A stretch of DNA of 64,000 nucleotides from Lepraria neglecta (lineage: Eukaryota; Ascomycota; Lecanoromycetes; Lecanorales; Stereocaulaceae). Each line of letters begins with the position of its first letter. The stretch's first letter is position 1. This document shows positions 33,699-58,157 of the stretch, one piece after another. Below the pieces are notes generated by a model. The model did not search any database. It was not told the DNA's origin and was given only the letters and a program-made list of their open reading frames with translations. A program made the position numbers and the translations under genes. Location of the stretch: NCBI GenBank assembly GCA_033220425.1, contig CM065650.1, positions 3,410,001-3,474,000 of the forward strand. Direction: 5' to 3'.

Positions 33699-34688
33699 TC
33701 AGTACTTGAACTCCTGACCGACAAGGTTCTCACTTAGCTTCCAGCACTTCTCAACGTGCTCAGGGTCGTACGCATGCTCAGCGGCGGGCTGCACAATCTG
33801 ACCGTTTTGCAGGTAGGCGGGAGCCTGCGCGGTGAGGTCCGGATCGAGGGCAGCAATGAGAGGCGTGGCGCCGATCTGCTCGTACGTCTTGAACCTCGGT
33901 TCATCTCCAACAACAAAATGGAAGTCCTTGCCTGTGTTGCGCTTCGTCACCGGCATGATGTCGCCATAGTCGTCCATGACTAGGTGAGAGCCGAGCTTGG
34001 TGTCAACGTTGGATCCAGGATGGCAGGCAAATGAGACGACGCCTCGCTGCTTGAGCCGATTGGTCACGCCGTGGGCGAACAGGATCTGAGCCGTTTTTGC
34101 CTGGCCGTAGCCTGTCCATGGGTCGTATGCTTTGCCGCCCGAAAAGGCGCTGTCGTCAAAGCGAACAGGAGAGATCTGATAGCCCGCGCTGGTGATGTTG
34201 ACGATACGGGCTCCATACGGACCATTAGCACCAGCTAAGAGAGCAGGCATGAGCAGGTTCGTCAGCAGGAAGTGTCCAACGTGGTTGGCCGACATCTGCA
34301 TCTCGATGCCCTGTTTGTCGACGGTGTACTCCTTCAGGGCCATGTTTCCAGCACTGTTGATCACGACGTCGATCTTGGATCCAGTCGCCGCCAGAATCTC
34401 GGGGGCGGCATGCCGCACCGAGTCGTGGTCGGATAAGTCCATCTGGACGAACGTCGCCTTGACCGAGGGGTCTATTCCGCGGATCGCTGAGAGAACGGGA
34501 TCAACCTTGGCAGCGGTTCGGGACGCGATAAGGATGTGTGCTGGCGAGGCTTTGGCGAGCTCTGTGGCCATGGAGCTCCCGATGCTAGGCTGGCCGGCGC
34601 CGGTGATGACAAAGACACGACCTTTGACTTGTGGAGTGAAGGCCGCAACTGCCTGCCTACTGGTCACCGTGGCGTCGAAGACGGGCAT
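33699..34688 (-). CDS. sol3: Short-chain dehydrogenase/reductase (Sol3-type)
   Basis: A single-exon protein of 329 aa from the SDR superfamily, similar in layout to retinol-dehydrogenase or WWOX-like fungal SDRs. An NAD(P) motif of the form TGAGQPSIG lies at residues 29-37 and is slightly atypical. NSAG is at 111-114, the catalytic Ser is at 167 (ITSAG), and Tyr194 and Lys198 form YGQAK. The frame stays open 49 codons further upstream, but ATG 34,688 has a CACC context and starts where SDR homology starts. There is no signal peptide, so it is probably cytosolic. It lies at the left edge of the cluster and is read away from the regulator. In the solanapyrone set the dehydrogenase is Sol3. A role in reducing the aldehyde of the end product is inference. 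The symbol is given by cluster match. Confidence 0.85.
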   Translation of the reverse strand: MPVFDATVTSRQAVAAFTPQVKGRVFVITGAGQPSIGSSMATELAKASPAHILIASRTAAKVDPVLSAIRGIDPSVKATFVQMDLSDHDSVRHAAPEILAATGSKIDVVINSAGNMALKEYTVDKQGIEMQMSANHVGHFLLTNLLMPALLAGANGPYGARIVNITSAGYQISPVRFDDSAFSGGKAYDPWTGYGQAKTAQILFAHGVTNRLKQRGVVSFACHPGSNVDTKLGSHLVMDDYGDIMPVTKRNTGKDFHFVVGDEPRFKTYEQIGATPLIAALDPDLTAQAPAYLQNGQIVQPAAEHAYDPEHVEKCWKLSENLVGQEFKY

Positions 34689-36102
34689 GGTGACGGAAAT
34701 AATCGAGGTCTGGGGCTTTGGTGAAAGGTTGTGACTTGTGAGGCAAACGTCAAGGGCCACTGGAAAGGTTACTGGCTGGTGGGTGTCCTGATGACAGTAA
34801 GAGTCGCCGGTAGCCGCTCTTATAAGCGATTGCAATCATGCTGCGCTTTACGGATATATACCTAAATCCGCAGCTTCCAAGTCATGCCTGCTGCGAAGCA
34901 GTGGGTGCAACAGGCGTGGCGAAGGGGGTGGGGGGCTGGGCCGTCGGGATTCGCGAAAGACATGATATAAACGACAAACCAGTTTAAAAAAATATACAGC
35001 CTGGTGTGGAGGTGTGGGGTGGTGTGACTGTGACATGATCTACAGCCTGGTGTGGAGGTGTGCCGTGGTGTGCTAGTGTTATCGGCCTCGGCCATGCTGA
35101 CAGCGCTAGCCGTTGTAGGGAGCGGCTGCACAACTCGGACTAATAAGCCACTATGCGGGTAGGTACTTACGGCCGGTAGACAGTTAGGATATGTCAAGTC
35201 CGCTTGTAGGCCCTAGGCGTTGTCGTCGGGTGACAATTTACTTAGGTGAAGACACCCAATACATAGGTGTGTTATTTGTGGTAAAGTGTTGTGTTGTATT
35301 GTGCTAAGTTCCTAGGTGTGGCAAGAGCCATTCAATAGACGCCTGCAGGGCGCCGAGCCGCTAACGGCCCAACACCGTGGAACATCAGCGGGCACTCCAA
35401 CCATTAGCCGCTACATGTGCCCCACTCCTCCCGCTATCGAAGTACTTAGATAGGCAGCTACTTGAATACCTTACTTTGACAGGTGATTAGCTATTCACTC
35501 TATTGAGTTCTGAGCGTAACCGTTGAAAAAGTGCCATTTGTTCTGTCTATCGCGTAGAGAGCCCGGAGAAAATATATACCTGTTGACCCGTCGGACTGAT
35601 CAGTAAGCAATGGCCCCGGGATTACACGACGTGCAGGTGACATCTGGCTCAGAAGCAACTGCATGCCAGCTGCAAAGCTACTCACTCTGATTATGTAGAA
35701 GATCAACAGATCGCTCAAAAGTCGGTGAAGACGTTTAGCATCTTCACGCACTAAACTACTGGTCAAAGGATTCTACTAGGTAACCTTGTTCGATGTCCAA
35801 CCAAGCAACCTTATTAGCTGCTGTTAGGGATGGGGCAGAACACGTGATTATCATGACTAAGCAAGGTGCTAACTACTTAGCACGCTCTGCCCATGTAAGA
35901 TAAACAAGCAACCTTCCAGAATACAATAAATCTGTCCCCATAATCTGTTCTGAAGGATATGAGCTGTCGACGCTGGATCAGCCCATAACAGCTACTAATG
36001 CCGATCTTGAGGACGAGGCTTAGCTTCGCGAAGCCTTGAGAGGGATTACAAGTGAAGCGCTGTCTGGTCGATTCTACTTCCAGTAACACCGCCAGGACCA
36101 CG
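34689..36102. promoter_or_regulatory. Divergent intergenic region, SDR / regulator
   Basis: A 1.4-kb spacer between two divergent genes, so it holds both promoters. It carries a TTATAAG-like box on the minus strand near 34,818-34,824, about 130 bp upstream of the SDR ATG. A 22-bp direct repeat occurs twice (34,995-35,016 and 35,041-35,062, core CAGCCTGGTGTGGAGGTG). There is a TCGGCCTCGGCC motif near 35,082 and a CGGCCG palindrome at 35,170-35,175. A small hairpin GTGCTAA...TTAGCAC is at 35,866-35,883. No gene was found in it. Confidence 0.5.
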
Positions 36103-38396
36103 ATGCAGGCAGGTAAGCGGAAACGCGAAGTGTCTTCCTGCATCCCTTGTTACACAAGAAAACAAAAGGTATCTATCGCCCGCGACGACCTCCTTTCTGG
36201 TGCTCATGCGCTTCTCTGTTAACGTATGCCTTGGCTGTAGTGCGATCATCAATATCCGTGCAACAGGTGCAGTCGGCGCCGACGACCAGAGCTGTGTGCC
36301 TATTCTTCTTCTCAATCACAGGCGCCTAACCTGCCGGCACCGACCGAGAAGAGTCGTGGTGAAGACATGCAGGTTGGCGACGATCATTGGGAGCATGATG
36401 ATGAAGGCGAACCTTCTGATTCCTCTACGACTTTGTTCACATCTGGGACTTCCCAAGAGAGGCCGGAGTCGTCGTCACTGGCTGAAGTCTTCGGATACTA
36501 CGGGCAGAGCGAATTCAACACCATGGCCCTCGTGCGAAAGGTAAATTGTCCATAGCTTTGTGACAGACCTCCGGCCATTTCAACGATCGGCTTAGTAACT
36601 TGTCATGATCAACAGCTGGTACACGAAGATGACAGTCCTGATGCTAAAGATATAGCCATATCGAATGAGATCGCGGCCGAGGTCCGCAAGGCGCTGGACA
36701 TGATGTTGAGCCGTCCGATACTCGATTTTCTGGTCAGATATTTCGTGACCAAAGTCAACTGGTTAGGCTCGCTGTCGCAGATGATCTTTTGAAAATACTG
36801 ACCTTTTCACCTACCACAGGATAGATCAACTTCTATATCCACCTTGGTTCCTTGAGCAGTACCAGAGATGGTGGAGTCTAGACAGACTATCCTCTGTTGC
36901 CGATATTGAATTCTCGATCCTCTTTCTGAGGATATGTTGCTACGCTTCGCAATTCCTTCCTTCTCCCACCTATATTATTGACAGCGTCAAAGGGGTAGCT
37001 CTAGCAGACATCCGCAAGTCATGTGAAGAAGTTATCAACGCGCTTGCACCAATCTGTGCCCGTCTGGATCCGCGAGGCTCCTTGATACGCGTGCAGCATA
37101 TCGCCTTCGCCGGTTTAGGGTCCATATGCCTGGGTCGAACGAATGCGTTCTGGGAAGCGCTCAGCTGTGCTATCCGTGTGGCGCAACAAATCGGCCTACA
37201 TCTAGACACCATCATTTGGGCCAGCAGCGTAGATGAGCTCGAAAAGGAGATGAGACGGCGCACATTTTGCAATCTCTACATATGGGACAGGTATGTGCCC
37301 CGATTTATGTTCTGAGAGTCGAGTCTGTTTTGACGGTATTTCAACTCTCATAAACAGCTGTCTGTCAAAACGTCTCGACCGTATACCATTCTTGCCTGAT
37401 GGCTTGAGCGCGGACATTATGCCCCGAATGCATCTCCTGCCCGATATTGACATCGGAGCCGATACCCCAGATGTCTTCACAGAGCGCGTTCTTCGAGCTC
37501 AGCTCGCTCGATTCTGGAGAAGCCACGGCCCAGCTAAAGGCTCTAAGTACGATGCGATAGCAGCAGAGGAGAGATACGAAAGCTTTTGCAGTACCTTTCT
37601 TCAAACGATGCCGCCCGTTTTTGCTCTGCAGCCAGACAAGCAATGGGACGAGCTTCTACCTACGCTTCCTATGCAACGGCAACTGCTACACATGGCCATC
37701 TTTGAGTTCCTCTGCTGGAACTTCAGGCCGACGCTCCTCCAGAAGCCCGACCAGGTCAAACATCTTCCGGGATATAAGCAGATCCTAATATCACACAACA
37801 AGAAGGCGTTGGCTGTGGCTGCACTCAACCTGCTGGAAGGCGTTTCCACTCTCCACATGATGATGGGCGGCTCTCATACGCGATTTGCAGGTATCATTGT
37901 GCCAATATTCGAGGCTGCGGTGCCACTGCTATGCCTGTGTGCGGATAAGAGCTTCCCAGGAGATATTACAGAGGGCCTATCGCACACAATGAAGCCAGAT
38001 CCGCTAGAAGTCGGCATAAGCAACGTGACACGGGCCGAATGCATGCAGGCAGCCCGGGATGCGCTGAGTTGTCTGCAGACTCTCGCAGAAGTCAGCAAAA
38101 TGGCCGAAGTAGGGGCGCGGACCCTCGCTCGCCTCATCGGCAGCGTTGACAGCTCGCCTCCGCTCGCTCAAGTGTATGGAGATTCGAGTGGGGCAGCTGA
38201 TGCAGTAATGCAGGCATCCGAAGCTTGGAGCTGCGATCAAATGCGAGAATATGCCATGAGAGGTTCTCAGGCAGATATCCCCTTTGGCAATACTGGATGC
38301 GCTGAGGTCGGTCCGAACTGGGAAGAAGTGCTGCGGGATCTTACCGGCAGCTTTGGTCTTGAAGAGAATGGTTTTCTTGAGGCAGGGCATCTATGA
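36103..38396 (+). CDS. sol4: Zn(II)2Cys6 transcription factor (Sol4-type cluster regulator)
   Basis: Five exons: 36,103-36,168, 36,241-36,540, 36,616-36,761, 36,820-37,290 and 37,358-38,396, closing in frame at 673 aa. The zinc cluster is at residues 13-41 (C13-x2-C16-x6-C23-x5-C29-x2-C32-x8-C41). Its two halves are joined by intron 1, which falls exactly between Lys22 and Cys23, so the finger is invisible in a plain frame search. An acidic, Ser-rich linker follows. The fungal-specific regulatory domain begins around residue 170 (YPPWFLEQYQRWW, then FAGLGSICLGRTNAFW and MRRRTFCNLYIWDR). It is a nuclear DNA-binding protein. In the solanapyrone cluster of Ascochyta rabiei the Zn2Cys6 factor Sol4 is the pathway-specific activator. 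It lies between the SDR and P450 genes. The symbol is by cluster match. Confidence 0.9.
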
Positions 38397-38500
38397 ACCA
38401 ATGAAATTAAGTTCTTCCGCCAATGTTCCATCATTCTCAGAAAAGCAATTGACCTTGCATTTGTTATGCTCCGTTGCGTAGTGTGGTACTCAGAAGTAGT

Positions 38501-38771
38501 CTCGCGGGTTGAACAAGAATCCGGAAATGCCGAGGCACAGAGCCCCACCAAATTTTCTTTATGTAATTCTCTACTATTTACATGATTATCATTCAATGCC
38601 CCGTCATTGATCCATCGCCATCAATTACAGCCTGTAGCCATTTGGCATTGTATCAACACGCTCCTTTATAAACGATATCGTGTTTGGAGAGGTCGAAGAA
38701 TGCACATACAAATTTGGATGGGTTTCTCGCTTAAAATCCCCGAATTTCCGGATTCTTGTTCAACCCGCGAG
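38501..38771. mobile_element. MITE with perfect 28-bp terminal inverted repeats
   Basis: CTCGCGGGTTGAACAAGAAT... (38,501-38,528) and its exact reverse complement (38,744-38,771) bound a 271-bp non-coding segment. A 5-bp duplication GTAGT lies immediately outside both ends (38,496-38,500 and 38,772-38,776). There is no coding capacity. Perfect arms and target duplication point to a recent insertion of a non-autonomous DNA transposon. It is not RIP-mutated. The superfamily is not assigned: TIRs beginning CTCGCGGG with a 5-bp duplication do not match a family I know. Confidence 0.9.
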
Positions 38772-39201
38772 GTAGTCAGCAAATAGGGTGGTGTAGACTT
38801 GGTACCGGTCCCTGCATCAAGGGATCTGTGTCGGCCCGTCCGTCCCATACAGGCGAAATGTCTCGATGTCGATCAGATATGCCTATGAGCTTTCTTGGAA
38901 AAACATCGCTAGGCTCAGACTACCATGCACAATCCTAAAGGTCCTAATGGTACATCCTTAGCATATATGCATGAGCGATCCTTCGCGGCAGGTAATACGA
39001 GGGCCTATGCACCTAATCCGAAGCATTTTAATGTTCACTAGTCGTTTGCCTCGCAAAAGGTGAGCCTGAAGGACTTTTGTACTTTATTTATGCTCACCAA
39101 TTATCAGGGGTCCGTGAATCCTTCTCAGAGGCATCTGTGACTCGCCTAAGCACCCCGCATAGCTTATCACATGTTGCAACGGCTTTTTCTCAGCTGAGGA
39201 C

Positions 39202-39213
39202 TGTCGGCCGACA
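39202..39213. promoter_or_regulatory. 12-bp palindrome TGTCGGCCGACA upstream of P450
   Basis: A perfect palindrome with facing CGG/CCG half-sites, 466 bp upstream of the P450 ATG. The identical 12-mer occurs upstream of the MFS gene (55,877-55,888). Two more CGGCCG cores follow at 39,237-39,242 and 39,340-39,347. It is a candidate binding site for the cluster's Zn2Cys6 regulator. Confidence 0.5.
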
Positions 39214-39678: not shown

Positions 39679-41497
39679 ATGGCGCCCTGGGGCACATTCA
39701 CGCTATACGGCGATAACATCTCACCCGTGATGGCGGCGACCCTTGCCCTCCCTTTCGTGGCCATGGCTCTTTACCTGCTTTACCAGTGGTTGCTTCCAAA
39801 ACCACTTCCAGGCATCGCATACAATGCCGAAGCCACAAAGTCGCTGTGGGGAGACGAACCCACTTTGGCCCGTTACCTCTCTGCCAATGGTGAGTTCAGT
39901 TCGTGGCTGGGCGAACAATGCTTGAAGCTGGGATCCCCAGTGTGTCAAGTTTTTGTCCAGCCTTTCAAACTGCCGTGGATATTGGTGGCAGACTTCCACG
40001 AGGCCCAAGATATTCTCATGAGACGGACGGACTTTGACAAGCCCCAGTTCTTGATCGATGGTCTGCAGGCTTTGGGCGATTTCCATGCCAGGTATAGGAC
40101 AGGGGAGGACGCGTTCAGGTCCCGCCGCCAGCTTAGACAAGACTTGATGTCTCCAAAGTTTCTCAATAACTATATCGGTCCTTTTTCGCACTCCAAAGGA
40201 CTCGAGCTCATCAAGCTCTTTGAGGCGAAGACAAACCTTGCCAATGGTAGGCCTTTTCGTGTTCGAGAGGACTACGCGCGCGCTGTCCTCGACATAATGC
40301 TCCACCATGCATTCGGGGAAGACTTTGGTGAGTCGGCACTAGAACCTCAGCTGGAACTTCTTTCCGAGATGACCCCTTCGTCGATACCTGAGGGCCATAT
40401 CGATGAGCCGGTGACTTTTGCTGAGGCTCCTCGCAGCTTTTTCCTCGAATTGCTCCATGAGACCGCGAAAATTATGGAGAGGACCACGATTTCCCCCACG
40501 CCACAACTCAGCTTCTGGTGGTGGTCAAAGCAGACCTGGTATAAGAAGATTTTTGCGGAGAGAAATCGAGTCATGCTGGGGCAGCTTCGAAAGGCTGCTG
40601 ATAACTTACACGCGGGCAATGTCAAGTCTGCTCTTGATCATATGATGATGCGAGAGCAAGCTGCAGCGGAAAAGCAGGGCCGAGAGCCTCGACTTATCAG
40701 TCAGAGCATGGCGGACGAGGTAGGTTTGATCATAGTTTTCGTACCCACAGTCTTTTGGCAGAAACGCTAATCAGGCCTGTGTTGCTTGCTAGATATTTGC
40801 TGATCCGATGACTGGTCACCATACCACTAGCAGCGCGATGACCTGGGTAAACAAATATCTCACCGGGTACCCCCACACCCAATCGAAGCTTCGAGACGAA
40901 TTGTACTCTGCAATTCCTGAGGCGGTCGAAGAGAAAAGACCACCAACGTTTGAGGAATTGAGGCGCGCCAGACTCCCCTATCTCGAGGCCGTCATTGAAG
41001 AGGCGCGTCGTCTGACGCCTTTTGTTATTGTGAGAGAGACAGCTCAAGACACCGAGATCCTAGGCCGTAAAGTTCCAAAGGGTGCCCAGTGCTTGATGGT
41101 CAGCGCTGGGCCTGGTATTACGTTACCTTCGGTTCCCGTGGATGAAAAGACGCGTAGTGCAACTTCGAAAGCAGCTAAGCCTTGGGGAAAGTGGGACGAA
41201 TCGCGAGACTTAAAACTCTTTGAACCAGAACGCTGGCTCGTACTCAGAGAAGACGGCAGTGTCGATTTCGACGCTACTTCGGGGCCTCAACTAGGCTTTG
41301 GTATGGGTACTCGGCAATGCTGGGGTAGGCGCCTAGCGCAGCTAGCGATAAGAACTGTCATCGCCTTGGTAGTTTGGGAATTTGAAATGATGGAGATCCC
41401 TGAGGATCTCGGAGGTTACGCCGGACTTGACGGGATCTCTCGCGAACCGGTGAGGGCATTCGCCAGGTTCAGGAAAATAACTCCCTATGAGTTTTGA
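39679..41497 (+). CDS. sol6: Cytochrome P450 monooxygenase (Sol6-type)
   Basis: Two exons, 39,679-40,719 and 40,793-41,497, give 581 aa. ATG 39,679 is the first ATG in frame. An N-terminal membrane anchor spans about residues 13-37 (MAATLALPFVAMALYLLYQW), so it is probably an ER membrane protein. The I-helix motif is GHHTTS (355-360) just after the intron, the K-helix ExxR is EEAR (416-419), FEPERW is the PERF region, and the heme loop is FGMGTRQCWG (516-525) with Cys523 as thiolate ligand. All P450 essentials are present. In the solanapyrone pathway Sol6 hydroxylates the pyrone C-methyl of prosolanapyrone I. The substrate here is inferred from the cluster. It is read in the same direction as the FAD oxidase gene. 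Confidence 0.9.
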
Positions 41498-42697: not shown

Positions 42698-44484
42698 ATG
42701 CGGCCATTGTCTTTCCTTGCTGTGAGCAGTCTCGCTCTCATACAGTCCTTTGCGGCTGGCCTTACGCTTCCGTCGTCCGAAGCCCAGATTCGACGTACGA
42801 GACGCTCCGTGAACGCACAGACCCAACAAGAGCTCGCTTCAGTCATTTCTAGCAACTCAACCATCTTTGGACCGACCGATGCCAACTGGGCAAACGAAAC
42901 GGAGAGGTATATGCAAAATGTTAAACCTCAGATCCAGCTTTCAGTGCGTCCCGGATGTGAAGATGATGTAGAAAAGATTGTAAGCATCTTTATCTCTATC
43001 GCCAATACTATTCTAACTCCTCGAAGGTTCAATATAGCAACAATCACAATATCCCGTTCTACGCAGTCAGCCGTGGCCATGCCCTGACAACAAGTGTTGG
43101 CCTTTTCAAGGGCATTGAGATTGATATGAGAAGCCTGGACGGTATTCACATTAACTCAAATAGTGTGACCGCACAGTTTCAAGGCGGAGTGTACAGCGAT
43201 GAAGTGATCAATACTCTCTGGAACCAAGGATTTGTGACAGGTAATGTCTATGTTTGGACTACGAGGAAACGTGTGTCTAACTAAAGTTGTGCTTTACAGC
43301 CACAGGAGGCTGTAGCTGTGTAAGCATACTCGGCCCTGGGCTTGGAGGAGGACATGGTTTACAGCAAGGCAAACACGGTTTAACAAGCGACCATTTCGTC
43401 AACTTGAATGTTGTGTTAGCCAACGGAACAGCCGTCCGCGTCAATGAAAACAGTCACCCTGATCTTTGGTGGGCCATGCGAGGCGCCGGTCACAACTTCG
43501 GCATTGTCACCAGCTTTGAGTCAAAGATTTGGCCAGACAACTTCAAGACGTATTTCGTCAAATCATACCAGTTTGCCGGCAGCTCGCTTGACGCCCTGAT
43601 CGAGCAGGTAAACAAATTTCAAGGCAATGGTACTCTCGATCCTACGTGGCTCGGATCTTTCGGTCTTTACACTATGAATACAACCCTGAGCCAGACTGAG
43701 GTAAGTAGCTCCATCAGCAGCTTGCGTCGTGGAGCTGCTTTCTGTCGGGTATCTAACTGGAAGCAGGCTACCATCACCTGGATCTTCCTTTACGATGGCG
43801 CTCAAGTAGATGCCGAGCCGGCGCTGAAGCCCTTCGACCAACTTCGACCCCTGTCAGTGGACGAAGTGAATGTCCCTTACAAGGTCATCAACGACCAAAT
43901 AGGTGGCGCGGTCAATGGCTCACTGTGCGAGCCAAACAAGACTCATATTCTCGGAACAGCTAACCTTCAGACCTACAATGTTACAGCCATGCGTGCGATC
44001 TACGATTTGTACAACCAGAAGATCAGCCAACATCCCGAGCTTGGAGGTACTAGAGTCTTGGTGGAAGGTTATGCGGTACAGGGCGTCCACAGCTTCAAGT
44101 CGGACGACTCAGCCTTCCCACTTCGTGATGACAATATCTTGACGTGAGTGCCCCCCGCCGAAAATTGGCAAAGTAGGCTATTGTGTGACCTGATGCTAAC
44201 AACGATCCAGATATTTCGATGTCAGATTCGACTCGAGCGATGATCCGCTCATTGACTTTGCCACGGAATGGCGCAACCAGACTGTGGATCTGTGGAATGC
44301 TGGCCAACCCGAGCGAAAGCCGACGGCATACGTGAACTACGCCGCGGGCTACGAGCCTCTCGAAGCTAGATATGGTTATGAGCCCTGGCGACTGGAGAGA
44401 CTGCGCAAGCTTAAGAGCCAGTACGATCCTAACAACAGGTTCGCCTGGTACAACCCCATCATCCCGCCAAACACGGGATACTGA
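42698..44484 (+). CDS. sol5: Secreted-type FAD-linked oxidase, BBE family (Sol5-type Diels-Alderase)
   Basis: Five exons: 42,698-42,979, 43,027-43,240, 43,300-43,700, 43,767-44,143 and 44,211-44,484, giving 515 aa. An N-terminal signal peptide (MRPLSFLAVSSLALIQSFAAG) leads into an FAD_binding_4 domain. His112 (SRGHAL) sits at the usual 8-alpha-histidyl site, and Cys170 in GGCSCVS aligns with the cysteinyl-FAD position of bicovalent relatives, followed by GLGGGHG. The C-terminal BBE domain ends YDPNNRFAW. Intron 3 (43,701-43,766) is 66 bp with no stop, so retention would only add 22 residues. Splicing is favoured because QTE|ATITWIF matches the family better and CTAAC precedes the acceptor. 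In the solanapyrone pathway Sol5 oxidises prosolanapyrone II to the aldehyde and promotes the [4+2] cyclisation. The symbol is by cluster match. Confidence 0.9.
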
Positions 44485-45008: not shown

Positions 45009-48000
45009 TCAACCACTCAACGCTTTGTCGACAATCTGCTCAGCCAACATTTTGATACTCGTCTGGGAATCGAGCAGATTCTGCAGTTTCGTCCTTAGCG
45101 CCTGATGGAACCAGTTCCGCAGCTCAGCCGCAATCAGGCTATCGACTCCATGCTCAGCTACACTCTTGCTTGGATTGACATTTCCCGCGTCGATGAAAAG
45201 CATCTCCGCAATTGTTTTCGCGATGCCGTCCGTGACAAGCTCGACTGTGGTTGCGCGTGCGTCTGGCCCGGCTTTGATAGCATCGTCGAAAGCGCGTCGT
45301 AGTCGGGCAGTCCCAGACGCAGAGTCATCTGCGTCACCATCGATGCCGTCCTCGGCGCTGGTGAGCGCGTGGCGCCTCGCGTCGTTCATCGCGCGCATGA
45401 TGAGCGATACGCGTCCGTCGCGGTGCCAACGGGGTACATTTGTTGAGATCATACCTGCCAGGTCGATAGGATTAAGGCAGGTGAAGAAAGTGGCTGCCGA
45501 TAGGGGATCGTGCTGCTGACCAATCCATTGCGAACGGCCCTGCGAATCCAAAAATGCGGGCTCGAGCGCAGCGAGCGCCTGGTGCTCCGTCATAGTTGAG
45601 GCTAGATTGCGTGCGTACATGTCCTCTGTTCCGTGCGAAGTTTCACGGTAATCGGATCCAACATCACTGACAAAGCCATACGATACGGTCGATGCAGGCA
45701 AGCCGAGCCGCCGGCGGTAGCGGGCAAAGTATGCCGCGAAGTTGTCGGCAGCGATGTACGCAGCCTGCGTTGGAGGCGCCCAGATCGTCTCAGTACTTGT
45801 GAGCATGACAAAGAAATCCAGAGGTAAGGCAATTGTAGCTTCGTGTAAGTTCACTGATCCTTGGGTCTTGGCCGCGATACCACTGCGCCACTGATCGATA
45901 GTCAACTTGTCGAACGAAAGATCTGACAAGGACAAAACTGCGTTCACAACGCCCTTGACAGGGCGGTTTGCCGCCGAGACTTTGTGAATGACCTGCACAA
46001 CCTTTTCCCGTTTGCTAACGTCACAGGCTATAGCTTCGATGCGCACCCCTCGAGCTTTCAAGTCATCGAGCAGTACTTGCGCCGCCAGCGTACTGGCTCC
46101 TCGTCTCGAGAGAACGACAAAGTCATGAGCGCCGCGATCAACCATCCACCTAAGGATGCTTCGACCAAGCCCGCCCAATCCTCCTGTGATGATATAGCGC
46201 GCTTCAGGATCGAAGGTTGCTGTTTGCGGCTGTCGGAGCAGTTTGATGATAGAGTTTGGATTCTGGAAAGACACTACCAGTTTTCCGATGTGCGTACCCC
46301 TGGAGAAGCTAAGCAAGGTTTGGTCGAGCTCCGAAACATCGGAGACAGACAAGGGGTGGATGGGCGCAATCCGACCCGTTTGGTGGAGCTCATTTACAGT
46401 CTTCATCAGCTGACCGCCAAGCTCAGGATCGTTGTCAAGGACCACATTGAGATCGAACGAAGAGAAGTTAGCGTTCTTCTGGAAAAGCTCCAGCCCCATT
46501 TCCTTGGATTCGAGCACATCCACGCGGCCAACGTCAATGAGGTGGCCCATTGGAGCGAGGGCTTTCAGAGACTGGTACAGTGAATCGCCTCCAACAACGG
46601 TGCTGAGAATCACATCAAATCCTCCCTTACCAGTTGCTCTGGCAGCCCGGGATAGGGCTTCCGGATCCCGCGAGGAAAAGATGTGATCAATCGGAATCCC
46701 GACGGTATCGGCTAGAAAGGAGACCTTGTCGGAGGTACCCACTGTGGTAAAGATTTCAGCCCCTCGGGATCGCGCGACCTGAATAGCTGCGAGCCCTAGA
46801 CCTCCAGTGGCAGATTGGATCAGGACTTTGTGGCCCTTCCTGAGCCGCGCGACGTATTCGAAAGCATAGACAGCAGACATGTAAACCAAAGGCATTGTGG
46901 CTGCTTCAATGAAATCATCCGTGGGCTGTAACTTTTGCGCAAATGCAGCTGGTACCCTTTCATAATTTCCAAAATGACCTTTGCCCACACCGTAGACACG
47001 ATCACCAACGGATAGCCCAGCCACCTTGGCTCCCACCTCGGTCACGACGCCAGCGTATTCAGAGGAGAGGTTGCTACTGGCTGCATTGTTTCGACCTGTG
47101 GCGAGTGTCACGTCCTTCCAGCTCAAACCCACAGCAGCGACCTTAACATCGACATAATTAACCGGAAGGGGCTGCAAAAATGCAGTGTAGGGTCGGAAGT
47201 ACAGAGAATTGAGGATGCCTGCAGTCTCGAACGCTGCGCGTACGGGTCCGTGACTGTCGATAGGAAGCATCTGGAAGCCTTGACGAGTCGGTGTCTTGAT
47301 TGTCTCCGAGTACTCACCAAGTCCTGCGTCAGGAACGACTCGGCTCACCCTCATGCAGCCGTCCTGCCAGGCGAATTCGCCATCAATGCTTCCCTCGCCA
47401 AGCTCTTCGGCTTGTAGAGCGAACTCGTTATTGACAATGCCGCGAACGAGATCGTCGTTCCCACGCTCGAAATTGTCGCCCTCGGTGTTGATGGAGAGGA
47501 AACGCCCGGCAGGGTTCTCGGTCGTGATCACCCGAAGAAGCCCGGTCATGAAAGCACCACGGGGATTCTGGCCCTTGACGATGCCACCAGGCGTCAACCA
47601 GAGCATGCTTTGGACGTTCCGGGCAAGATGTTGAAATGACTTGAGACGGTGTTCATCAGCATCGAAGAGATCGTTTTTGCTGCTCAAAAAGGCGACGACA
47701 CGCGCATTCGCGGGCACAGCTTCCACTGCGCCATCAAGTGGGAACGCTTTGCACGTGGCACCATGACGCTCGAACTCCGCGGCAATCTGTCCTGAGAGCG
47801 GTGGCGCGCTATGGGTATCGTGAAGGAGATAGATCACCCCGGCCTCCTGTTCAGCAGACTGAGTGGGGCTCTCTGCGTCCTGTTCTTCAACACGGGTAGT
47901 TACTAGGACAGAAGTCGTGTTGTGTGGAGCATGATAATCATCGAGAACCAGATCAGTCCCTGAAAACCCATTTTCACGCAAACGCCTCTGCCAGGTCTGA

Positions 48001-51000
48001 AGATTCATGAAGGGTCCCTCCGTACGGCCATCAGACTGCCAATATCCTGTCAAGGTGCCATATAAGAGGCCGAGCAAAACTCTCATCCGGGTAGTTTCCA
48101 CCAATACCAACTTGCCGCCCGGCTTCAGAAGGCTTCGACAGTGCGCCAGCGTTCGATCCATGCTGGCAGTCGCGTGGATGGCCTCACATGTTAAAACAAC
48201 GTCGTAAGCGGGCTCGTATCCATTTTCCATGGGGTTCTGCTCGATGTCAAGGACAGAGTAATTCACATCGCGGTAATCAGACAGCATGTCTTTTGCAGAT
48301 GTAAGAAAACCGGCCGAGATGTCGGTAAAGGTGTAGTCGGCATAGCGCTTGATACCATTTGGACCTACTAGCGCTTTCATCGCGGCTCGTGTCGCGGCGC
48401 CCGTTCCGGCTCCAATCTCTAGGATGCGAAGGTTGGGGTTCGCATGGCCCAGACAGTCCATTATGTTGAACACTTGAGGATGAGAACCGGCAATTGCATG
48501 ACCGGTTTCGTAAAGTGGCGTTAGCAGCTTGTCGGACACCAGGACATCGATTCCTGTTCTCCGCTCGTTGAGGATCTCGCCCACGTTTTCATGCAGAAGC
48601 TTGGCAGCCTTGGCCTCCGGCCTGTCGCCGGCCTCGTCGTGAAGCTTTTGAAGCAGCTGACGGCGCTGGTCTGGGGATAGCTTCCTTGCTTCAACCATAT
48701 TCGGCCTTTGATCTTCCTCGACGATCCTCTTCATCCAAGCGAGCCAGTGTCTTATGTCTCCTTTTGGGCAAGGTCCCGTACCGCCTGATATGAACGTTCC
48801 ATATATTTCGAATACAACCAAGCAGCAGATCATGTCGACGATCTCAAGGGCAGCAGCTCCCTCCGCATTCTCGGTAGGAGGAGGAAACAGCTCGCGAACC
48901 TGACGATTGTTCAGAGTGCGAATGTCAGGCTTCCATACCAATCTGGTGAAAGGACTGCTAAAAGGCTGCCTGGATTGCATCTCTTTTGTCAATTTCGACT
49001 CTTTGAAGCTGGTGAAGCGCATGGAGTCCACCTCGAGAAAAACATCGCCGCTTGGGTCCATCATTTGCAACTGTGCGTAGGCACTCCGAAGTCCTTGGAT
49101 CGATCCCCGAGCGATGGCCCTGCCCCAATCTTGTCTAACTCCAGCTTTCAAATACAGCTGGGACAGGTGAACAGGCACAAACGCAGCATTTGCTTTCTCG
49201 ACCTGACCTCCATAAAAGGCGATAATCGCCAACTGGAAAGTGGCATCCAAAGCGGTTGGGTGTAGAGGATAACTCGACTCTCCTCCTTTGATGGTGCCAG
49301 CGGTTTTATTCAACGCCACGGTAGCCTTGGCAAGATTCCGATGGGGGTCTACCTGGATTTCTGAGAGCGGCCGGAACGTCTCGCCATACCCAAGGCCAAT
49401 CTCGGTGAACTTGTCATACCACGCCTGGGGGCTCGGGAATCTGGGATCCATCTCAGCGCTTATCTTGTCCTTTTCTGCCGGTGGGGAAACTTCAACCTTG
49501 ACCAAGCCGGTGCAGTGCTGAGTCCACTCGTTCGAGTCTCGAGCTACCGATGTGACGGCGAATTTGGCCCATGCTGGTGATTTGGCCGTTGCCGTATCCA
49601 CAAGCTCCATGCTGAAAATTATTTCGATGCCGTAGTCATCCTCAGGAATCCTCAAGGCAGTGTCGATATCGACCTTGCGGAACGAATACCCCGTTATTTC
49701 TAAAGCGTCTGGAAGATCGTGATAGACTCTGGTGGCAGCTTCTACTCCCAGGGCAATAAAGCCTGCAGCAGGGAAAACGGCATCTAGTGATTAGAACGTT
49801 AGCTAGGGTTTACCGTGCTAGTGGTCATGGCCATTTTCTTACCCGGCAGCAAACGATGATCGCTCAGCCACGGGACATCCTTCGCTCGAAGGACGTTCCT
49901 CCATTGGGGCTGGAGCTTGCTAGCCCCCGGCACCTCGGAGCCAAGAAGATCGTGTCTAACAATTTCTCGTAGTCGATATTCCTTGCTGACCCGGCTCTCG
50001 TAATAGCTCACTGACCCATACGTATACTGGTAAGTTGGAAGGTCAACTGCAGTGCAACCGTGTGTAAGGATCCGCTTCCCCTCAAAGGCACCGTCCACGG
50101 AGTTTACTGCGGCCAGGTCAATCTCAGCATTGGTAGCAAACAACGTTCCAGCGAGCTGCAACAGCGAGTTTCTGCCGTCTTCGTTTCTTTGCAACGACGG
50201 GACATATTGTGCAGGCTTGCCGATGCCCTTGAGGATCTGCTCCAAGGGGCCCTTCAAAGCTGCATGGGGTCCGATCTCAATTAGAACATCAATCGCTGTG
50301 CCGTTTTCCAGGCTCATCATTTTCGTGACGGCCTGGGTAAATCTCACGGGAGATTCGAGGTTCGCTCTCCAGTAATGGGCTGCCAAATCTCCGTCAGCGA
50401 TGACTTTATCTGGTTTCACTGACGACGCCCACGGAATCCTAGGATAACGCTGCGTTTCGTCGACCAGCCCAAGCTTCTTTATGCGCTCGGCACCACTGTG
50501 AAGCATATCGGTGTAGTCGCCACCGACGGCCAACATGTGATGGGAATGATAGGCGCTGCCACATGTGCGAAGTACCCGGTTAAAAACATTGTCTTTGGTC
50601 AATATGGCGGAGAGCGCTTCGATAGCGTCTGCGTCGCCGGATAGCGTGACACTGCCGGGAGAGTTCATAGCCGCAATCCTAACCTGCTCTTCCTTGCCCT
50701 GAATGTAGCCCGACACTTGATCTGCACCCAGACCGACAGCTAACATAGCTCCTTTTCTCTTGTTCTTAGAGACGGCCTGGCCACGGAAGTAAGCAGCCGT
50801 GATAGCTTCGGCAGCCGTGATATGGCCAGAGGCATAGGCGGCGGCCATCTCGCCCGAGGAATGTCCAACAACGGCAACAGGTCGAACAGACCACGAGGCC
50901 AGGAGGTCGACAATGGCAATCTGAACAGCCGTACACACGACCTGCGATACTTTCGGCGACTGAATGTGTTCTGGCTCATATGCACCCGATAACGTGGCGG

Positions 51001-53136
51001 AAATAGTCCATGAAGGACAGTCCGGAAGTTCCTTGAGGAGGTAGTCTAGATAGGATATCGTAGCTCGAAATATGCCATAATCGAAGAGCTGTGCGCCCAT
51101 GGCATGCCACTGCGCACCCTGGCCGGTAAAGACATAAGCGACATTGCTGGCCTGTATAGGACTCGTGAAGATACGCTTTTCGGCAGCAAGCCCCAGTGCA
51201 AGATCATCCTTGTCCACAATGCGGAAGGATCGCTGCTGCAGTCGTGAACGCTTACAGCCCAGGGTATAGGCAATGTCTGCCAAGCTCAACTGGTCAATGA
51301 CCTGGGACAAAGCGTCGATGTTCAGCTTGAGAGAAGATGCATTGTGGGCGGAGAATGGTAGCAGCACCAATTGACGAGTGGATGCTTTGGCACTGGCGAC
51401 TTTCTTTGCTGCGGAGGTGACAGGCGAGTGATGCGGCGGAGTTGATGGCGGAGTCGGAGTTGATACTCCGTTCAACTTGAAGTTCCCGCTGCCGTTCGAG
51501 AGCCCATTTTCCAGCTGCCCGTTGGAGTAGCCATTCAAGTTACCATTTGTGGATTGGCCGTTGACAGGAAGAGAACCTATGATGCCAGGCCTTACATAAC
51601 CCGGGAGCACGTTATTGACGTGGTCGATGATACAGTGGCCATTGGCGCCACCGAAGCCGAACGAGTTGACACTTGCGCGGCGAAGCTTACCCTCGGGCCA
51701 TGGCACAGTGCCGTCCTTTACAACTAGCACCTTGGCTCCTTCAAAGTCAATATTCGGATTCAACTTTTCAACACCGTACGTTGGCGGTACCTCGCCTGCC
51801 TCGAGAGAAAGAACGACCTTCATGATGGAAGCGAGCGCGCTTGCTCCTTCGGTGTGGCCCAAGTTCGGCTTGATAGAGCCAATCAGCAGGCGGTCTTCGG
51901 GGGCATTTGATCTCGAGGATGCGAACACGTTGCCGGCTGCGGACACTTCGAGAGGATCGCCAGCCGGAGTGCCCGTTCCATGGCACTCGAAGAACGTCGT
52001 GTCCGAGAAGGGGAGGTTACCGGCGTTCTCGTAGGCCTTGCGGATGGCGTCTTCCTGACCTCTCGCACTGGGACGTGTAATGCCTCCAGTTTTTCCGTTG
52101 GCGTTGACGGCGGTGCCTCGAATCATGGCTCTGATGGGCAATCCATCTAATACAGCTACCGAAGACTTCTTCAAGTATAGGGCAACAAAGCCTTCGCCAC
52201 GGGCGTACCCATCGGCAGAGACGTCAAAAGTGTGACATCGCGACGTTGGAGACAGCGCGCCGAGTTTGTCGAGCACAATCTGCATACTAGGGTCGCTGAT
52301 CCAGTTGGCCGCTGCTACAATGGCGCCGTCGCAATCGCCATTGCGAATCGCGCTGACAGCTAGGTGCAGCGCGTACATGGACGACGAGCATGCTGTGTTG
52401 ATGGCCAGACTGTCGCCAGGTCATGATTAGTAGGTGCTATTAGCTAGGCTGGAGCGCACCCATGCGGGACTTACCTCGGGCCGTGAAGGTTGAAGATATA
52501 ACTGATGCGGTTGGCGAGAATACTTGTCTCTGCACCTGTAGCTGCGTATGGCTTTGTATACTCCCAGTCGCGCGCCTGAATCAGCAGGTGGTCAAGGGCA
52601 AAGTTGCCGATGTAAACGCCAGTTCGGGATCCTGCAATGCTATCCCATGTCTCGCCCGCGTTCTCAAAAGCCTCGTATACTATGCCGGGTTACTACTAAG
52701 GACTTCTCTCAACGAAGTCTCCCTGCAGCAATTCTTACTTACCTACTTCGAGAAGCTTGCGCTGCGACGGATCCATTGTTTCAACCTCACGACCCATGAT
52801 ACCAAAAAAGGCATGGTCGAAAAGTCGTGCATCTTCATCAACGAGGAACCCGCCTCGTGTTCTGACAGATCCTGGGCGGTCTTGGTTGGCATGGTAGAAG
52901 CCTTTGGCGGGAAAATGCGGCTCATCGAACTCCCGCCAGCCGTCCCGCTTGCTTCTCAACAGCTGCCACAGCCCGGGAGCGTCTTTGACGCCACCAGCCC
53001 ATCGACATCCTACGTGTAGAAGAGGCCATTTAGCACAGCGTCATCTTTGGAGTTATCATAGAGGAAAGGGTATCTCACCCATGCCAACGATGGCCACCGG
53101 CTCATTCTCCCCCTCTAGGATTGAAGGAACTGACAT
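45009..53136 (-). CDS. sol1: Highly reducing type I polyketide synthase KS-AT-DH-MT-ER-KR-ACP (Sol1-type)
   Basis: Five exons in transcript order: 53,136-53,079, 53,009-52,743, 52,679-52,475, 52,409-49,843 and 49,783-45,009, giving 2623 aa. KS is about 14-440 (nucleophile Cys184 in INTACSSS, His320 in ECHGTG, His362 in NLGHTEG). AT is about 600-920 (Ser694 in GHSSG). DH is about 990-1290 (His1028, Asp1212 in HPTALDATF). The C-methyltransferase motif is ILEIGAGTGAA near 1486-1496. ER has SATGGLGLAA near 2023. KR has TGGLGGLG near 2232 and Tyr2375. ACP has Ser2581 in HGVDSL. All domains keep key motifs. No thioesterase or reductase follows the ACP, which fits release as an alpha-pyrone. The active MT fits the SAM-derived methyl of prosolanapyrone. 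It is divergent from the O-methyltransferase gene across 451 bp. The symbol is by cluster match. Confidence 0.92.
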
Positions 53137-53587
53137 GACTGTTGTTGAAGACCTGTCTAGATGTATTTTGCCTTATTCTATGTAGCAGCGGGCGTGCAAA
53201 TTTGGGCGTGTCTGAGCTTGTATTTAGGATACACGAGTCTGATGGCATGCATCTTGCCGCAATTGCCCAAAGGTACGCATTTCACCATGGTCTTCGGTCA
53301 AATCAATTCAACCCGATTCGACTTTGGCCGACTGATAGGCAAGCGAGCTCATTTCGTCGTCATCATGAAGTGGCGGCCGATCACAAGGGTCAATCCGAGA
53401 TTTCTCGGTCAGGTAATGCTGCAGATGCCCATGTTCGGGCACATGCGCTCCTTAGCGCTGACGAGAAGAAGCGGTGTGTGGAGTATGTATTTGCTCTCTT
53501 AAATTCCATGAAAGGTCCTGTCTCTACAATCGGGACAGTCGCTTCTCACGTTGTGTGCTGGCAGAATTCATACCCAGCCCGTTCACC
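53137..53587. promoter_or_regulatory. Bidirectional promoter, PKS / O-methyltransferase
   Basis: A 451-bp spacer between the divergent start codons of the two genes that would act first in the pathway. It holds CGGCCG at 53,374-53,379 and a related TTGGCCGAC at 53,324-53,332, similar to the palindromes upstream of the P450 and MFS genes. No clear TATA box was found. Plus-strand frames that extend through it are leaderless and have no domain. Confidence 0.55.
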
Positions 53588-55089
53588 ATGTCTTCTGACT
53601 CTGAAAATGCTTCTATCCTCCGTCTTGCTGAGAGTATCTTAGAGAATACTAAGGAAGTCACCAAGTATCTTCAATCATCCAATGTAGCTCTACCGACTTT
53701 TTCACCCACAGCTGAGGAGCTGCCAAGCACGCCAGACTTCCAGAAGCTTCAGACCCACTTGAGGACACAGCTAGAAGACTTGCAACTCCTTGTGGATGGC
53801 CCACCAAGATTCTACCGGCACTTCCTCGTGCGAGGCTATGAGATTGCAGCCTTCCAAATCGCTCTGGACTTCGGCTTCTTCACCTTGGTGCCCGGTGAAG
53901 GCGACATCTCTATGGAAGACCTAGCAAAAAAAGCTGGACTGGACCAAGATCGAACCGGCCGCGTCATGCGTCTTCTGATCACCCATCGCTTCTTCAAAGA
54001 AAGCAGGCCCGGTTTCTTTTCTCACAATTCCTTCTCTATTGCCCTCCAAAGAGATGACGAGATGAGGTCGATGGTACACTACTCGTGAGTTTCCATTGCC
54101 CGAGAAAGTTGTCAAACACCGCGTGACTGATTGCTTGTCGTAGATTTGATGAGATGCTCAAAGCGTCTGCAGAGTCGAGCGTTGCTATCAAGGCGAATCC
54201 CTTTGAGGCTGATAGTGTGCACTGCCCCTTCTACACGCGCTTTGGAATTCCCATATTTGACTATTATAAAAAGCACCCAGAACGCTCTGGTCGCTTTGCC
54301 AAGGCAATGGCTGGCTGGCGAAAAAGTGAGTACTTGAGTTTGCTTTGTTTACACAGCCGCTTGTAGATTTGGACTCTCAAGGAAAAGACGACGCTGACAA
54401 GCAATGATGAAGTGGTGAACAATACCGTCGAGCTAAGAGACAATTACCCCTGGGCAGATCTCAAAGGAACCGTTGTGGACATTGGCGGTGGCAGCGGTCA
54501 TGTCTCTATCGAATTGGCTCGAGTAAGTAGAAATTGCCCTTCGGATGTAACGTGATCGAAAAGTCTAACGTTATGCGTCTTCAAGCTTTTCCCTCATCTG
54601 AAATTCGCTGTACAAGACGGTGACGACGCTATGCTAGCTCAAGGCGAGCGGTTACTCAGCGATGATGTCCGTGATCGCATCTCATTCACTAAGGCGAATT
54701 TCTTCGAGCCTCAGCAATACATGGCCTCCGCGTACCTTATCCGCCAGTGTACGCACAACTGGGCCGACCACGACGTGGTCACCATATTGAAGTCTGTGGT
54801 ACCTGGGCTAGAGGGCTCGGCCCCGGAGACGCCTCTGCTGATAAACGATATGATCCTGCCGGAGCCGGGATCAAAGGTGTCGCGCATCTGGGAGCGCGAG
54901 AGGCGGCAGGCCGATATGGTGATGTTGGTGTGCTATGGGGCGAAGCAGCGCACCGTCACTGAGTTCGAGGCTCTCTTGAACGAGGCCGACCCTAGATACG
55001 TGATCCGTAAAGTTCACGACCAGGGCGCGCTGGGTCTTCTTGAGGTCTACCTGGACCGGGGGCATAGAGTAAATAACGTCAGTCACTAG
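53588..55089 (+). CDS. sol2: SAM-dependent O-methyltransferase (Sol2-type)
   Basis: Four exons: 53,588-54,084, 54,144-54,325, 54,413-54,522 and 54,586-55,089, giving 430 aa. The N-terminal half is a winged-helix dimerisation region (YEIAAFQIALDFGFF). The SAM motif is VVDIGGGSGHVS (247-258), and the catalytic His320 lies in QCTHNWADHD. This is the Methyltransf_2 family common beside fungal PKS genes. Intron 2 is the uncertain one: donor GTGAGT at 54,326, branch GCTGAC, acceptor AAG at 54,412. The nearer CAG and TAG acceptors lead to stops. The chosen splice gives AMAGWRK-MVNNTVELRDNYPW, which has family spacing. In the solanapyrone pathway Sol2 methylates the pyrone 4-hydroxyl of desmethylprosolanapyrone I. 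It is cytosolic, with no targeting signal. The symbol is by cluster match. Confidence 0.88.
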
Positions 55090-55876: not shown

Positions 55877-55888
55877 TGTCGGCCGACA
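55877..55888. promoter_or_regulatory. 12-bp palindrome TGTCGGCCGACA upstream of MFS gene
   Basis: Identical to the palindrome at 39,202-39,213 upstream of the P450 gene and located 413 bp before the MFS ATG. A 12-base exact palindrome shared by two promoters of one cluster suggests a common regulator, most simply the cluster's Zn2Cys6 protein. Confidence 0.5.
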
Positions 55889-56053
55889 TGCATGCGTGGA
55901 ATGAGCTTTCTGCCTCATTGGGTCTAGTCCAGTAGAGTTTCAAGGTGCTCCGCGTCCCACTACGCTCACCAAACCACAATCATCGGTTGTCGTATCAATG
56001 TAGGGAATAGTTTGCCGATCTGCGGCAAGCGCAAGATGAAGTCTTTTCAGACG

Positions 56054-56099
56054 GGATTTCAAATCTCAAATGGGTAGGATTTCAAATCTCAAATGGGTA
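56054..56099. repeat. 23-bp tandem duplication in MFS promoter
   Basis: GGATTTCAAATCTCAAATGG... (56,054-56,076) is repeated exactly at 56,077-56,099, about 200 bp before the MFS start. It looks like a recent slippage event. No known binding motif was recognised in it. Confidence 0.85.
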
Positions 56100-56300
56100 G
56101 AGTGATCGGTCCCAAGTCTGCACCACCCTATTTGCTGGCTACTCCTGTGTATGATTCACTCTTGTTCTTGCCTTATTGCTTGCTCAGAAGCCGTTCATTC
56201 CGGGCTCACTTTAAATAACCTTCCTCTTCTCCCCTCACTTGCATTCCATCACAAACAGTCCAGAGACCTCCCATAACACTCATAGAGCCATCCCTTCACC

Positions 56301-58157
56301 ATGGCAGACACCACGTCGAATGCCAATCCTACGATCGCAGACATGTCTACCAGCGACAAAAGCTCGCAAACCGTACTGGCTGCAGCCAACGAAGATGGTC
56401 AGAACACAATCAACCCCGAGAATGAGAAGGGTGTCGCAGTCGGCAACGACGTGCCCAAACCGCCGGCCTCTCCACGGAATGCCCACGGCTTTGTCTGGGT
56501 TCTAATTGTCACGAGTGTCCTCATGGCCAACTTCCTATTTGCAACGGACAACACCATCGCAGCCAACATCCAACCGGCGGTGGTTAAGGACTTTGCATCC
56601 CTCGACAAGCTTGCTTGGCTTCCCATTGGCTTTTTTGCGTCGTCTTGGAGCACCAATCTACTATGGTACACTATCGATATGCGCAAGTATTTAGGACGCT
56701 CGTACTGACCTGGCAATGCAGGGGAGACATCTATGCGCGTTTTAGTAGCAAATGGACATTCTGCTCGAGCTTCGTTGTCTTCGCTGTCGGGTCCGCTGTC
56801 TGCGGAGCTGCGCCCACAATGAATGCTCTGATTGTGGGACGCGCGATATGTGGTATGGGGGGCGCTGGAATGTGAGTTGTGACCTCCCTGCAATTTCTCA
56901 ATGCTCACACATGCAGGTACTATGGCTCTATGGCCCTTCTAACACAGATGACTTCGGAAAGAGAGCGGCCGCTTTATCTGAACCTTGTTGGCATCACTTT
57001 CGGTGGAGGAACTGTGCTCGGCCCAATCATTGGCGGAGCTTTCGCTGTGAGCAATGCTACTTGGCGCTGGGCGTTTTATTTGTTAGTGTATCCATGTGCT
57101 GCTTCGGCTTCGTTCACGACTGACCATCGAATGTAGTAACCTCGTCGTTGGTGGCGTCTGTGCCCCAATCTACATCTTTCTTCTGCCAACACTCAACCCA
57201 CGTCCTGGTCAAACCATCAAGGAACGAGCGATCGAGATCGATTATCTTGGGATCGTTTTATTGTGCGGTCTCATCGTATCTCTCGTCATGGCCATCTCTT
57301 TCGGTGGCGTCGAGTATGCCTGGAACTCGGGCCAAGTCATCGCCCTCTTCGTCGTGGCCTTTGTCCTCCTTTGGCTTTTCCTGGCCCAGCAGGTCTTTGC
57401 AATCGGAACCACCGCCGAGCGCCGCGTGTTCCCCATGCACTTCCTCAAATCAAGCACCATGATTGTGCTCTTCCTCGAAGTGGCCTGCGCAGCCACCTGT
57501 GTCTTCGTTCCTGTCTACTTCCTGCCTCTCTACTTTCAATTCGTCAAAGCCGACACCGCGATCACCGCTGGAGTGCGAATGCTACCATTCGTCGCCTGCC
57601 AGACTATCATCGCGATCCTCTCAGGCTGGCTCGTCGGCAAGACCGGCGACTATGTTCCATGGTACATCTTTGCTGGCGCACTTTGCGTACCAGGCGCTGC
57701 GCTGCTTTACACAGTCAATCAGTACACACCACTCGCCAATGTCTACGGCTACGAAATCCTTCTTGGTTTGGGCTCCGGCGCAAGCACCCAGCTCTCGTTT
57801 GCTGTCGCCTCAATCAAGGTCGCCCCGGCCGATATACCGCGCAGCATTGGATGGGAAGCTTTTGCGCAGCTCGGCGGGCCAACTATCGCGCTCAGCATCG
57901 CTAACAGCGTCTTTCTCAACAAGGCACAAGATGGAATTGCCACCCTGCTGCCAAATCTCAGCAGACTCGATATCAGCACTATCATCTCTGATCCAAGTAG
58001 CCCGCTGTTGCGGGATCTGCCGCAAAATGTGCAAGACCAGGTGGTCGATGTTGTTGTGCGGTCAATGAGCAATGCCTATATTCTGTGTATTGTTGGCGGA
58101 TCCTTTGTTCTGCTCCTGATCTTCAGGTTCAAAATCAACTCGAAGCTGTATGGTTAA
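56301..58157 (+). CDS. MFS transporter, DHA2-like 14-TM drug/toxin exporter family
   Basis: Four exons: 56,301-56,665, 56,722-56,871, 56,917-57,081 and 57,137-58,157, giving 566 aa. A soluble N-terminal tail of about 60 residues precedes the first membrane helix (GFVWVLIVTSVLMANFLF). Hallmarks are the WLPIGFF segment, the loop motif GDIYARFSSKW after TM2, GRAICGMGGAGM, and LGPIIGGAFAVSNATWRWAF (motif C region). The C-terminal half is one long open exon with repeated hydrophobic segments. It resembles transporters of fungal toxin clusters and probably exports the cluster product at the plasma membrane. Shared promoter palindrome and position support membership. Whether the published six-gene solanapyrone set includes a transporter I cannot confirm, so no symbol is given. 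Confidence 0.88.

Follow-up and report, generated by a model that had tools for sequence, protein, structure and literature searches.

A complete polyketide gene cluster from the lichen-forming fungus Lepraria neglecta that may direct synthesis of a chlamydosporol-type methoxy-pyrone rather than solanapyrone

The lichen-forming fungus Lepraria neglecta carries a polyketide gene cluster that was analysed here in a stretch of 64,000 nucleotides (the window; positions 3,410,001-3,474,000 of one contig of 4,932,628 bases, in a genome of 42.02 Mb in 11 contigs). The cluster is complete and probably functional. As judged by the enzyme set and its relatives, its product is probably a small pyrone with a methoxy group, akin to the plant toxin solanapyrone but not the same compound. 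The full interpretation, i.e., a complete L. neglecta cluster for a methoxy-pyrone of the chlamydosporol/acuminatopyrone type rather than solanapyrone, with core genes that were passed horizontally, stands in our estimate at an even chance. As the source is L. neglecta, the host of the cluster is a lichen-forming fungus and not a plant pathogen; a chromosomal assembly of this species is cited in PMC11353741.

The spliced models of all seven genes at 33699-58157 have GT-AG introns and zero internal stops. An earlier note on this DNA had described seven adjacent intact genes of the types listed below, and this was borne out by the open frames for integrity and by Pfam together with a cysteine motif for the types. 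As the best Pfam E-values per gene range from 1e-12 to 4e-70, chance is no issue for the gene types. The genes are the following (aa, amino acids):

33699..34688, minus strand: short-chain dehydrogenase/reductase (SDR), 329 aa, single exon; adh_short PF00106 1.6e-21; sol3-like by class only
36103..38396, plus strand: Zn2Cys6 transcription factor, 673 aa, 5 exons (36103-36168, 36241-36540, 36616-36761, 36820-37290, 37358-38396); Fungal_trans PF04082 1.2e-12
39679..41497, plus strand: cytochrome P450, 581 aa, 2 exons (39679-40719, 40793-41497); PF00067 1.9e-30; sol6-like by class; proposed pyrone C-methyl hydroxylase
42698..44484, plus strand: BBE-type FAD oxidase, 515 aa, 5 exons (42698-42979, 43027-43240, 43300-43700, 43767-44143, 44211-44484); PF01565 (FAD_binding_4) 1.4e-23, PF08031 (BBE) 1.6e-5
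45009..53136, minus strand: polyketide synthase (PKS) of the highly reducing type (HR-PKS), 2623 aa, 5 exons (53136-53079, 53009-52743, 52679-52475, 52409-49843, 49783-45009); Pfam KS-AT-DH-MT-ER-KR-ACP
53588..55089, plus strand: O-methyltransferase, 430 aa, 4 exons (53588-54084, 54144-54325, 54413-54522, 54586-55089); Methyltransf_2 PF00891 1.3e-21
56301..58157, plus strand: MFS transporter, 566 aa, 4 exons (56301-56665, 56722-56871, 56917-57081, 57137-58157); MFS_1 PF07690 2.5e-35

Protein searches were made with the PKS, the oxidase and the P450, and the best 120 matches each were taken with one row per 90% cluster, some rows being nameless. The database PKS model of L. neglecta (P0121) is 100% identical over 93% of the query, and the database oxidase model (P0002) is listed at 87%, being 98% identical over shared columns and lacking a stretch present in the new model. 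In the 121-row PKS tree the window's enzyme falls within sets of 16 and 26 rows and within a 46-row clade, each with a support of 100. This clade spans Fusarium tricinctum, Podospora, Apiospora, Chaetomium, Xylaria, Teloschistales and Trypetheliales. Identities over aligned residues inside the clade are 88.4% to Diplogelasinospora, 84.2% each to Xanthocarpia and Trypethelium, 78.0% to Xylaria hypoxylon, 73.8% to Chaetomium fimeti, 69.8% to Podospora, 67.0% to Aspergillus alliaceus, 65.5% to Apiospora and 65.2% to F. tricinctum (P0144), and outside of it 55.2 and 56.6% to Daldinia, 54.0% to Colletotrichum and 53.2% to Alternaria (P0217); BLAST identities run somewhat lower (Diplogelasinospora 84%). 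The nearest named PKS and oxidase relatives are from lichens, Sordariales and Xylariales and, further off, the F. tricinctum complex, and not from Alternaria or Ascochyta. The database label "prosolanapyrone synthase" sits on Apiospora P0148 within the clade and on Colletotrichum P0195 far outside, so that the clade splits this loose label into families with different likely products.

Moreover, the clade is marked by a change in the ketoreductase (KR). PKS ketoreductases carry a Lys-Ser-Tyr-Asn residue set. Its Asn, which follows the catalytic Tyr at a distance of four residues, has been exchanged in 34 of the 46 clade rows and is kept in all 75 rows outside. Within the clade the position is Asp in 16 rows, including Asp2379 of the window, Thr in seven, including F. 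tricinctum, Ser in 11 and Asn in 12, and Asp is found in every row of the window's nearest 16-row set (two of these rows being the same protein). The change may reflect a reduction programme that is altered and probably weaker, as would suit a chain that is short and little reduced.

The oxidase tree agrees with the PKS tree: each of the two enzymes shares a clade with rows of the F. tricinctum complex, and Fusarium avenaceum P0018, about 55% identical to the window's oxidase, lies inside its 20-row clade. The oxidase has the features of the BBE/VAO type, i.e., FAD_binding_4 and BBE domains, the candidate flavin-linkage residues His112 and Cys170 and a VAO fold; a structure model of its relative P0001 (83% identity) matches SorD and EncM, enzymes that carry out complex oxidative chemistry. 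The P450 is 87% identical to Diplogelasinospora grovesii and 82% to Bogoriella, and its list repeats many near relatives of the PKS and oxidase lists. By matching contig sizes across the three lists, PKS, oxidase and P450 were placed on one contig in at least 12 species, in some of them with neighbouring locus numbers, e.g., g9991, g9992 and g9993 in X. hypoxylon. In Diplogelasinospora the P450 row is on a contig of another size than the PKS and oxidase rows, and Hypoxylon fuscum has a near oxidase (82%) with a PKS that, among the matches listed, reaches only 61% and lies outside the clade. In the Fusarium relatives P0267 and P0269, P450 and FAD-oxidase domains occur in one protein of ~1000 aa, either a fused model or a real fusion.

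Two published lines bear on the product. Among 18 strains of F. avenaceum, the PKS44 cluster, which is described as syntenic with sol, was broken or missing in the four chlamydosporol/acuminatopyrone non-producers and intact in the producers (PMC11677700), and we infer that P0144 (F. tricinctum) and P0018 (F. avenaceum) belong to PKS44. For chlamydosporol relatives, a route was proposed from one acetyl, three malonyl and two S-adenosylmethionine (SAM) units, followed by C-4 O-methylation, C-11 oxidation, reduction of the 8-keto group and attack of the 8-hydroxyl on the aldehyde (PMC7234987), steps that could be supplied by the PKS, O-methyltransferase, P450, oxidase and SDR of the window. In the proposed pathway the PKS would assemble a short chain with C-methylation and little reduction and release it as a 4-hydroxy-alpha-pyrone, the 4-hydroxyl would be capped by the O-methyltransferase, and the P450 would hydroxylate a C-methyl of the pyrone ring to an alcohol, which the flavin oxidase would convert to the aldehyde. 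This aldehyde could be trapped by a hydroxyl of the side chain, which the SDR may generate, and the MFS transporter would export the product. The zinc-cluster factor would switch the genes on via CGGCCG palindromes.

Several properties of the accessory proteins bear on these roles. Alignment of the O-methyltransferase with 8pha and DtpM shows that the SAM motif VVDIGGGSG is kept, as is the His in HNW, a residue which we take to be catalytic; judged by these two features, the protein is probably a true O-methyltransferase. An O-methyltransferase-like pericyclase was considered, as HpiI and LepI are among its relatives, and was set aside on the retained His. The least certain splice site of its model is the acceptor of exon 3. 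In the factor, residues 13-41 of the model read C-x2-C-x6-C-x5-C-x2-C-x8-C, i.e., six cysteines in the standard zinc-cluster spacing, with Zn_clus PF00172 at 17.4 bits, under the 21-bit cut-off. The best PDB relatives of the SDR are generic SDRs, and the nearest solved chains of the MFS transporter are EmrB and EfpA. Upstream of the SDR, at 34992-35072, there are two 35-bp direct repeats that are 91% alike, and adjoining the MFS gene a long open frame without Pfam match extends over 59127-61265 (661 aa scanned).

Shared promoter elements join the P450 and the MFS gene. The features concerned are the following:

38772..38813, plus strand: 42-nt element, copy 1; 88% match to 56101-56142, E 2.6e-8
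56101..56142, minus strand: 42-nt element, copy 2; 159 bp 5' of the MFS start
39202..39213, no strand: palindrome TGTCGGCCGACA, copy 1; located 466 bp 5' of the P450 start; candidate binding site for the zinc-cluster factor
55877..55888, no strand: palindrome TGTCGGCCGACA, copy 2; 413 bp 5' of the MFS start
53374..53380, no strand: CGGCCGA copy in the PKS/O-methyltransferase bidirectional promoter
38501..38771, no strand: terminal-inverted-repeat element of 271 bp between factor and P450; 28-bp perfect arms, GTAGT on both flanks

Across the 42.02-Mb genome the palindrome TGTCGGCCGACA is present only twice, once each in the P450 and MFS promoters, and these two promoters also share the 42-nt element in inverted order. 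The 17-mer core of the 42-nt element is found exactly only twice in the genome, and with two mismatches there are four further matches compared to three for the reversed control; a genome-wide repeat was rejected, as no other copy was found. CGGCCGA was found eight times in the eight intergenic stretches of the cluster compared to 0.54 expected (five before the P450, two before the MFS gene, one between PKS and O-methyltransferase, each palindrome counting twice). As the motifs were picked once they had been seen, the figures for them are descriptive. Because of the elements in common with the P450, the transporter looks like a part of the cluster. The MFS promoter also holds an exact 23-bp tandem duplication (56054-56099). 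The 271-bp element adjoins copy 1 of the 42-nt element and has one 77% partial relative at C6:3548722-3548873.

Regarding the origin of the core, the trees of PKS, oxidase and P450 mix fungal classes. Approximately unbiased (AU) tests reject monophyletic Sordariomycetes for the PKS (28 rows, p-AU 2.6e-68), the oxidase (20 rows, 7e-101) and the P450 (20 rows, 9.9e-6), with p-values that overstate the case, the rows having been picked from lists and grouped by taxonomy after the first PKS tree was seen, which weakens the argument for transfer. As controls from the same genome, acetyl-CoA carboxylase is identical at 660/928 positions (71%, counted over the printed part of the alignment) and UGGT at 500/920 (54%) to PDB chains that are presumably from Chaetomium thermophilum, a comparison with n=2 and with a species other than Diplogelasinospora. 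The PKS identity of 88.4% to the sordariomycete Diplogelasinospora exceeds both controls, suggesting horizontal transfer, and an exchange of the core genes between Sordariomycetes and lichen fungi is the probable reading. A wider proposal, which we hold tentatively and at somewhat below an even chance, is that an intact sol-like pathway of PKS, P450 and oxidase crossed between sordariomycetes with a free-living habit and lichen-formers of two classes (Lecanoromycetes, Dothideomycetes), and so provided lichens with a phytotoxin- or antialgal-type pyrone unlike their usual depsides; it includes the Asn-to-Asp change in the KR of the clade and a flavin oxidase that may perform an oxidative cyclisation of its own. 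The genomic surroundings are uneven: positions 1-32000 of the window are gene-poor and AT-rich (GC 0.33-0.41) with dinucleotide ratios as in repeat-induced point mutation (TpA/ApT 1.4-1.8), three 10-kb samples (C5:3360001-3370000, 3380001-3390000, 3400001-3410000) resemble this block, giving ~80 kb as sampled, and the block ends <2 kb from the cluster; the 10 kb right of the window are normal.

A number of points weigh against a transferred cluster of the chlamydosporol type. The roles of PKS, O-methyltransferase, P450 and oxidase also fit a solanapyrone route, and what decides is the chain length, which is unreadable from sequence. The link between PKS44 and its product is an association over 18 strains and not a deletion, and with an identity of no more than 65% the F. 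tricinctum PKS may make a chain of another length or methylation. In the window's PKS the KR retains its Lys, Ser and Tyr and the enoylreductase (ER) its glycines, so that these domains may still reduce. The best 120 P450 matches include no row under the name of F. avenaceum or F. tricinctum, and the window's clade consists of varied taxa without any product known to us. CGGCCGA is missing from the oxidase and SDR promoters, and because the word is absent upstream of the SDR, this gene has the weakest cluster membership of the seven; the 8-mer TCGGCCGA is mildly enriched over the whole window (three compared to 0.89 expected, reached by 5/100 shuffles). Furthermore, a number of the lichen rows come from metagenome assemblies, class mixing may stem from unseen paralogy combined with gene loss, and the oxidase tree does not settle where the window falls relative to the fungal classes. 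On the strength of the trees and of the KR residue, the chlamydosporol-like route is nevertheless favoured.

The best-surviving rival explanation is a sol-like pyrone with another chain, e.g., a longer or dalsymbiopyrone-like one, in which the oxidase would perform another oxidative cyclisation. It agrees with the breadth of the sol-like family, in which dalsymbiopyrone has been linked to sol-like clusters of Daldinia (PMC8403587), and with SorD and EncM being among the nearest predicted oxidase folds; we consider it unlikely, if the least so of the rivals, as among the product links found it is the chlamydosporol one that concerns the nearest relatives. Vertical inheritance of the core genes, with class mixing due to ancient duplication and loss or to contaminated metagenome assemblies, is doubtful as well: the metagenome labels and the mere pair of controls speak for it, whereas the 4.93-Mb contig of the window, the PKS identity above both controls and the agreement of three genes speak against it. 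A true solanapyrone cluster, with an octaketide chain and an oxidase that both forms the aldehyde and drives the [4+2] step leading to the decalin, matches in its six enzyme classes but is improbable, since the clusters of A. solani and A. rabiei are reportedly 97% alike and a close match would be expected, whereas no row named Alternaria or Ascochyta is among the best 120 matches for oxidase or P450, the sole Alternaria PKS row (P0217, 53.2%) lies outside the clade, the KR Asn is replaced in most rows of the window's clade and kept outside, and the factor differs from Sol4. No protein named as a Sol of either species is among the 120 matches shown each for oxidase, PKS and P450.

The suspicion that P0217 (Alternaria novae-zelandiae, 26 members) is Sol1 could not be confirmed, and solanapyrone-like families are reported from few Alternaria genomes (PMC12278603). 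The earlier note had called the genes the exact solanapyrone set: the six enzyme classes stand, and the exact pathway is not supported in view of clade placement, KR residue and zinc-cluster factor. What the note had named as refuting it, best PKS and oxidase matches to another cluster, is largely what was seen, and the related, undescribed pyrone that the note had offered as its alternative is preferred. The chlamydosporol-type pathway implies no Diels-Alder step for the oxidase, and the Diels-Alder role that the note had suggested for this enzyme found no support.

In literature on Lepraria genomes or pyrones and on solanapyrone in lichens, Lecanoromycetes or Teloschistales, no recognisable report of the cluster was found among the matches listed. 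Sol-like clusters are known mainly from plant pathogens and endophytes, and one that is complete and conserved in lichen fungi would tie pyrone chemistry to algal partnership or competition and not to plant disease. Moreover, a core so near to that of free-living sordariomycetes offers a clear case in which to test the passage of clusters from one fungal class to another.

Compared to known systems, the clusters of X. hypoxylon, Xylaria intraflava, C. fimeti and Bogoriella have co-located PKS, oxidase and P450 as in the window, with a PKS 71-79% identical, and to our knowledge no known product. The solanapyrone cluster of A. rabiei is reportedly subtelomeric; the window's lies 1.46 Mb from the contig end and is not. 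The window shares the six enzyme classes of the solanapyrone clusters of Alternaria solani, Ascochyta rabiei and Peroneutypa (sol1-sol6: HR-PKS, O-methyltransferase, dehydrogenase, factor, oxidase, P450; PMC11686517, PMC11443529), but it has an extra transporter and no close sequence kin among the best 120 matches per search, and its factor carries the six-cysteine motif, whereas Sol4 is reported, in the available parts of PMC6763771 and PMC6891577, without a DNA-binding domain and with only the middle homology region. The dalsymbiopyrone-linked clusters of Daldinia and Hypoxylon lienhwacheense have a sol-like enzyme set with an HR-PKS, as does the window, whereas the two measured Daldinia PKS rows (55.2 and 56.6%) lie outside its clade; according to the available part of PMC8403587, two of these clusters have no O-methyltransferase, and sol-grouped clusters are named there only from these taxa in a data set that included X. 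hypoxylon, possibly in another strain than the one listed here. The sol-like PKS44 cluster of F. avenaceum has a PKS and an oxidase that share clades with those of the window, and the differences to these Fusarium rows, placed by us in PKS44, are identities of ~65% for the PKS and ~55% for the oxidase, a KR Thr in Fusarium where the window has Asp, and a host that is here a lichen.

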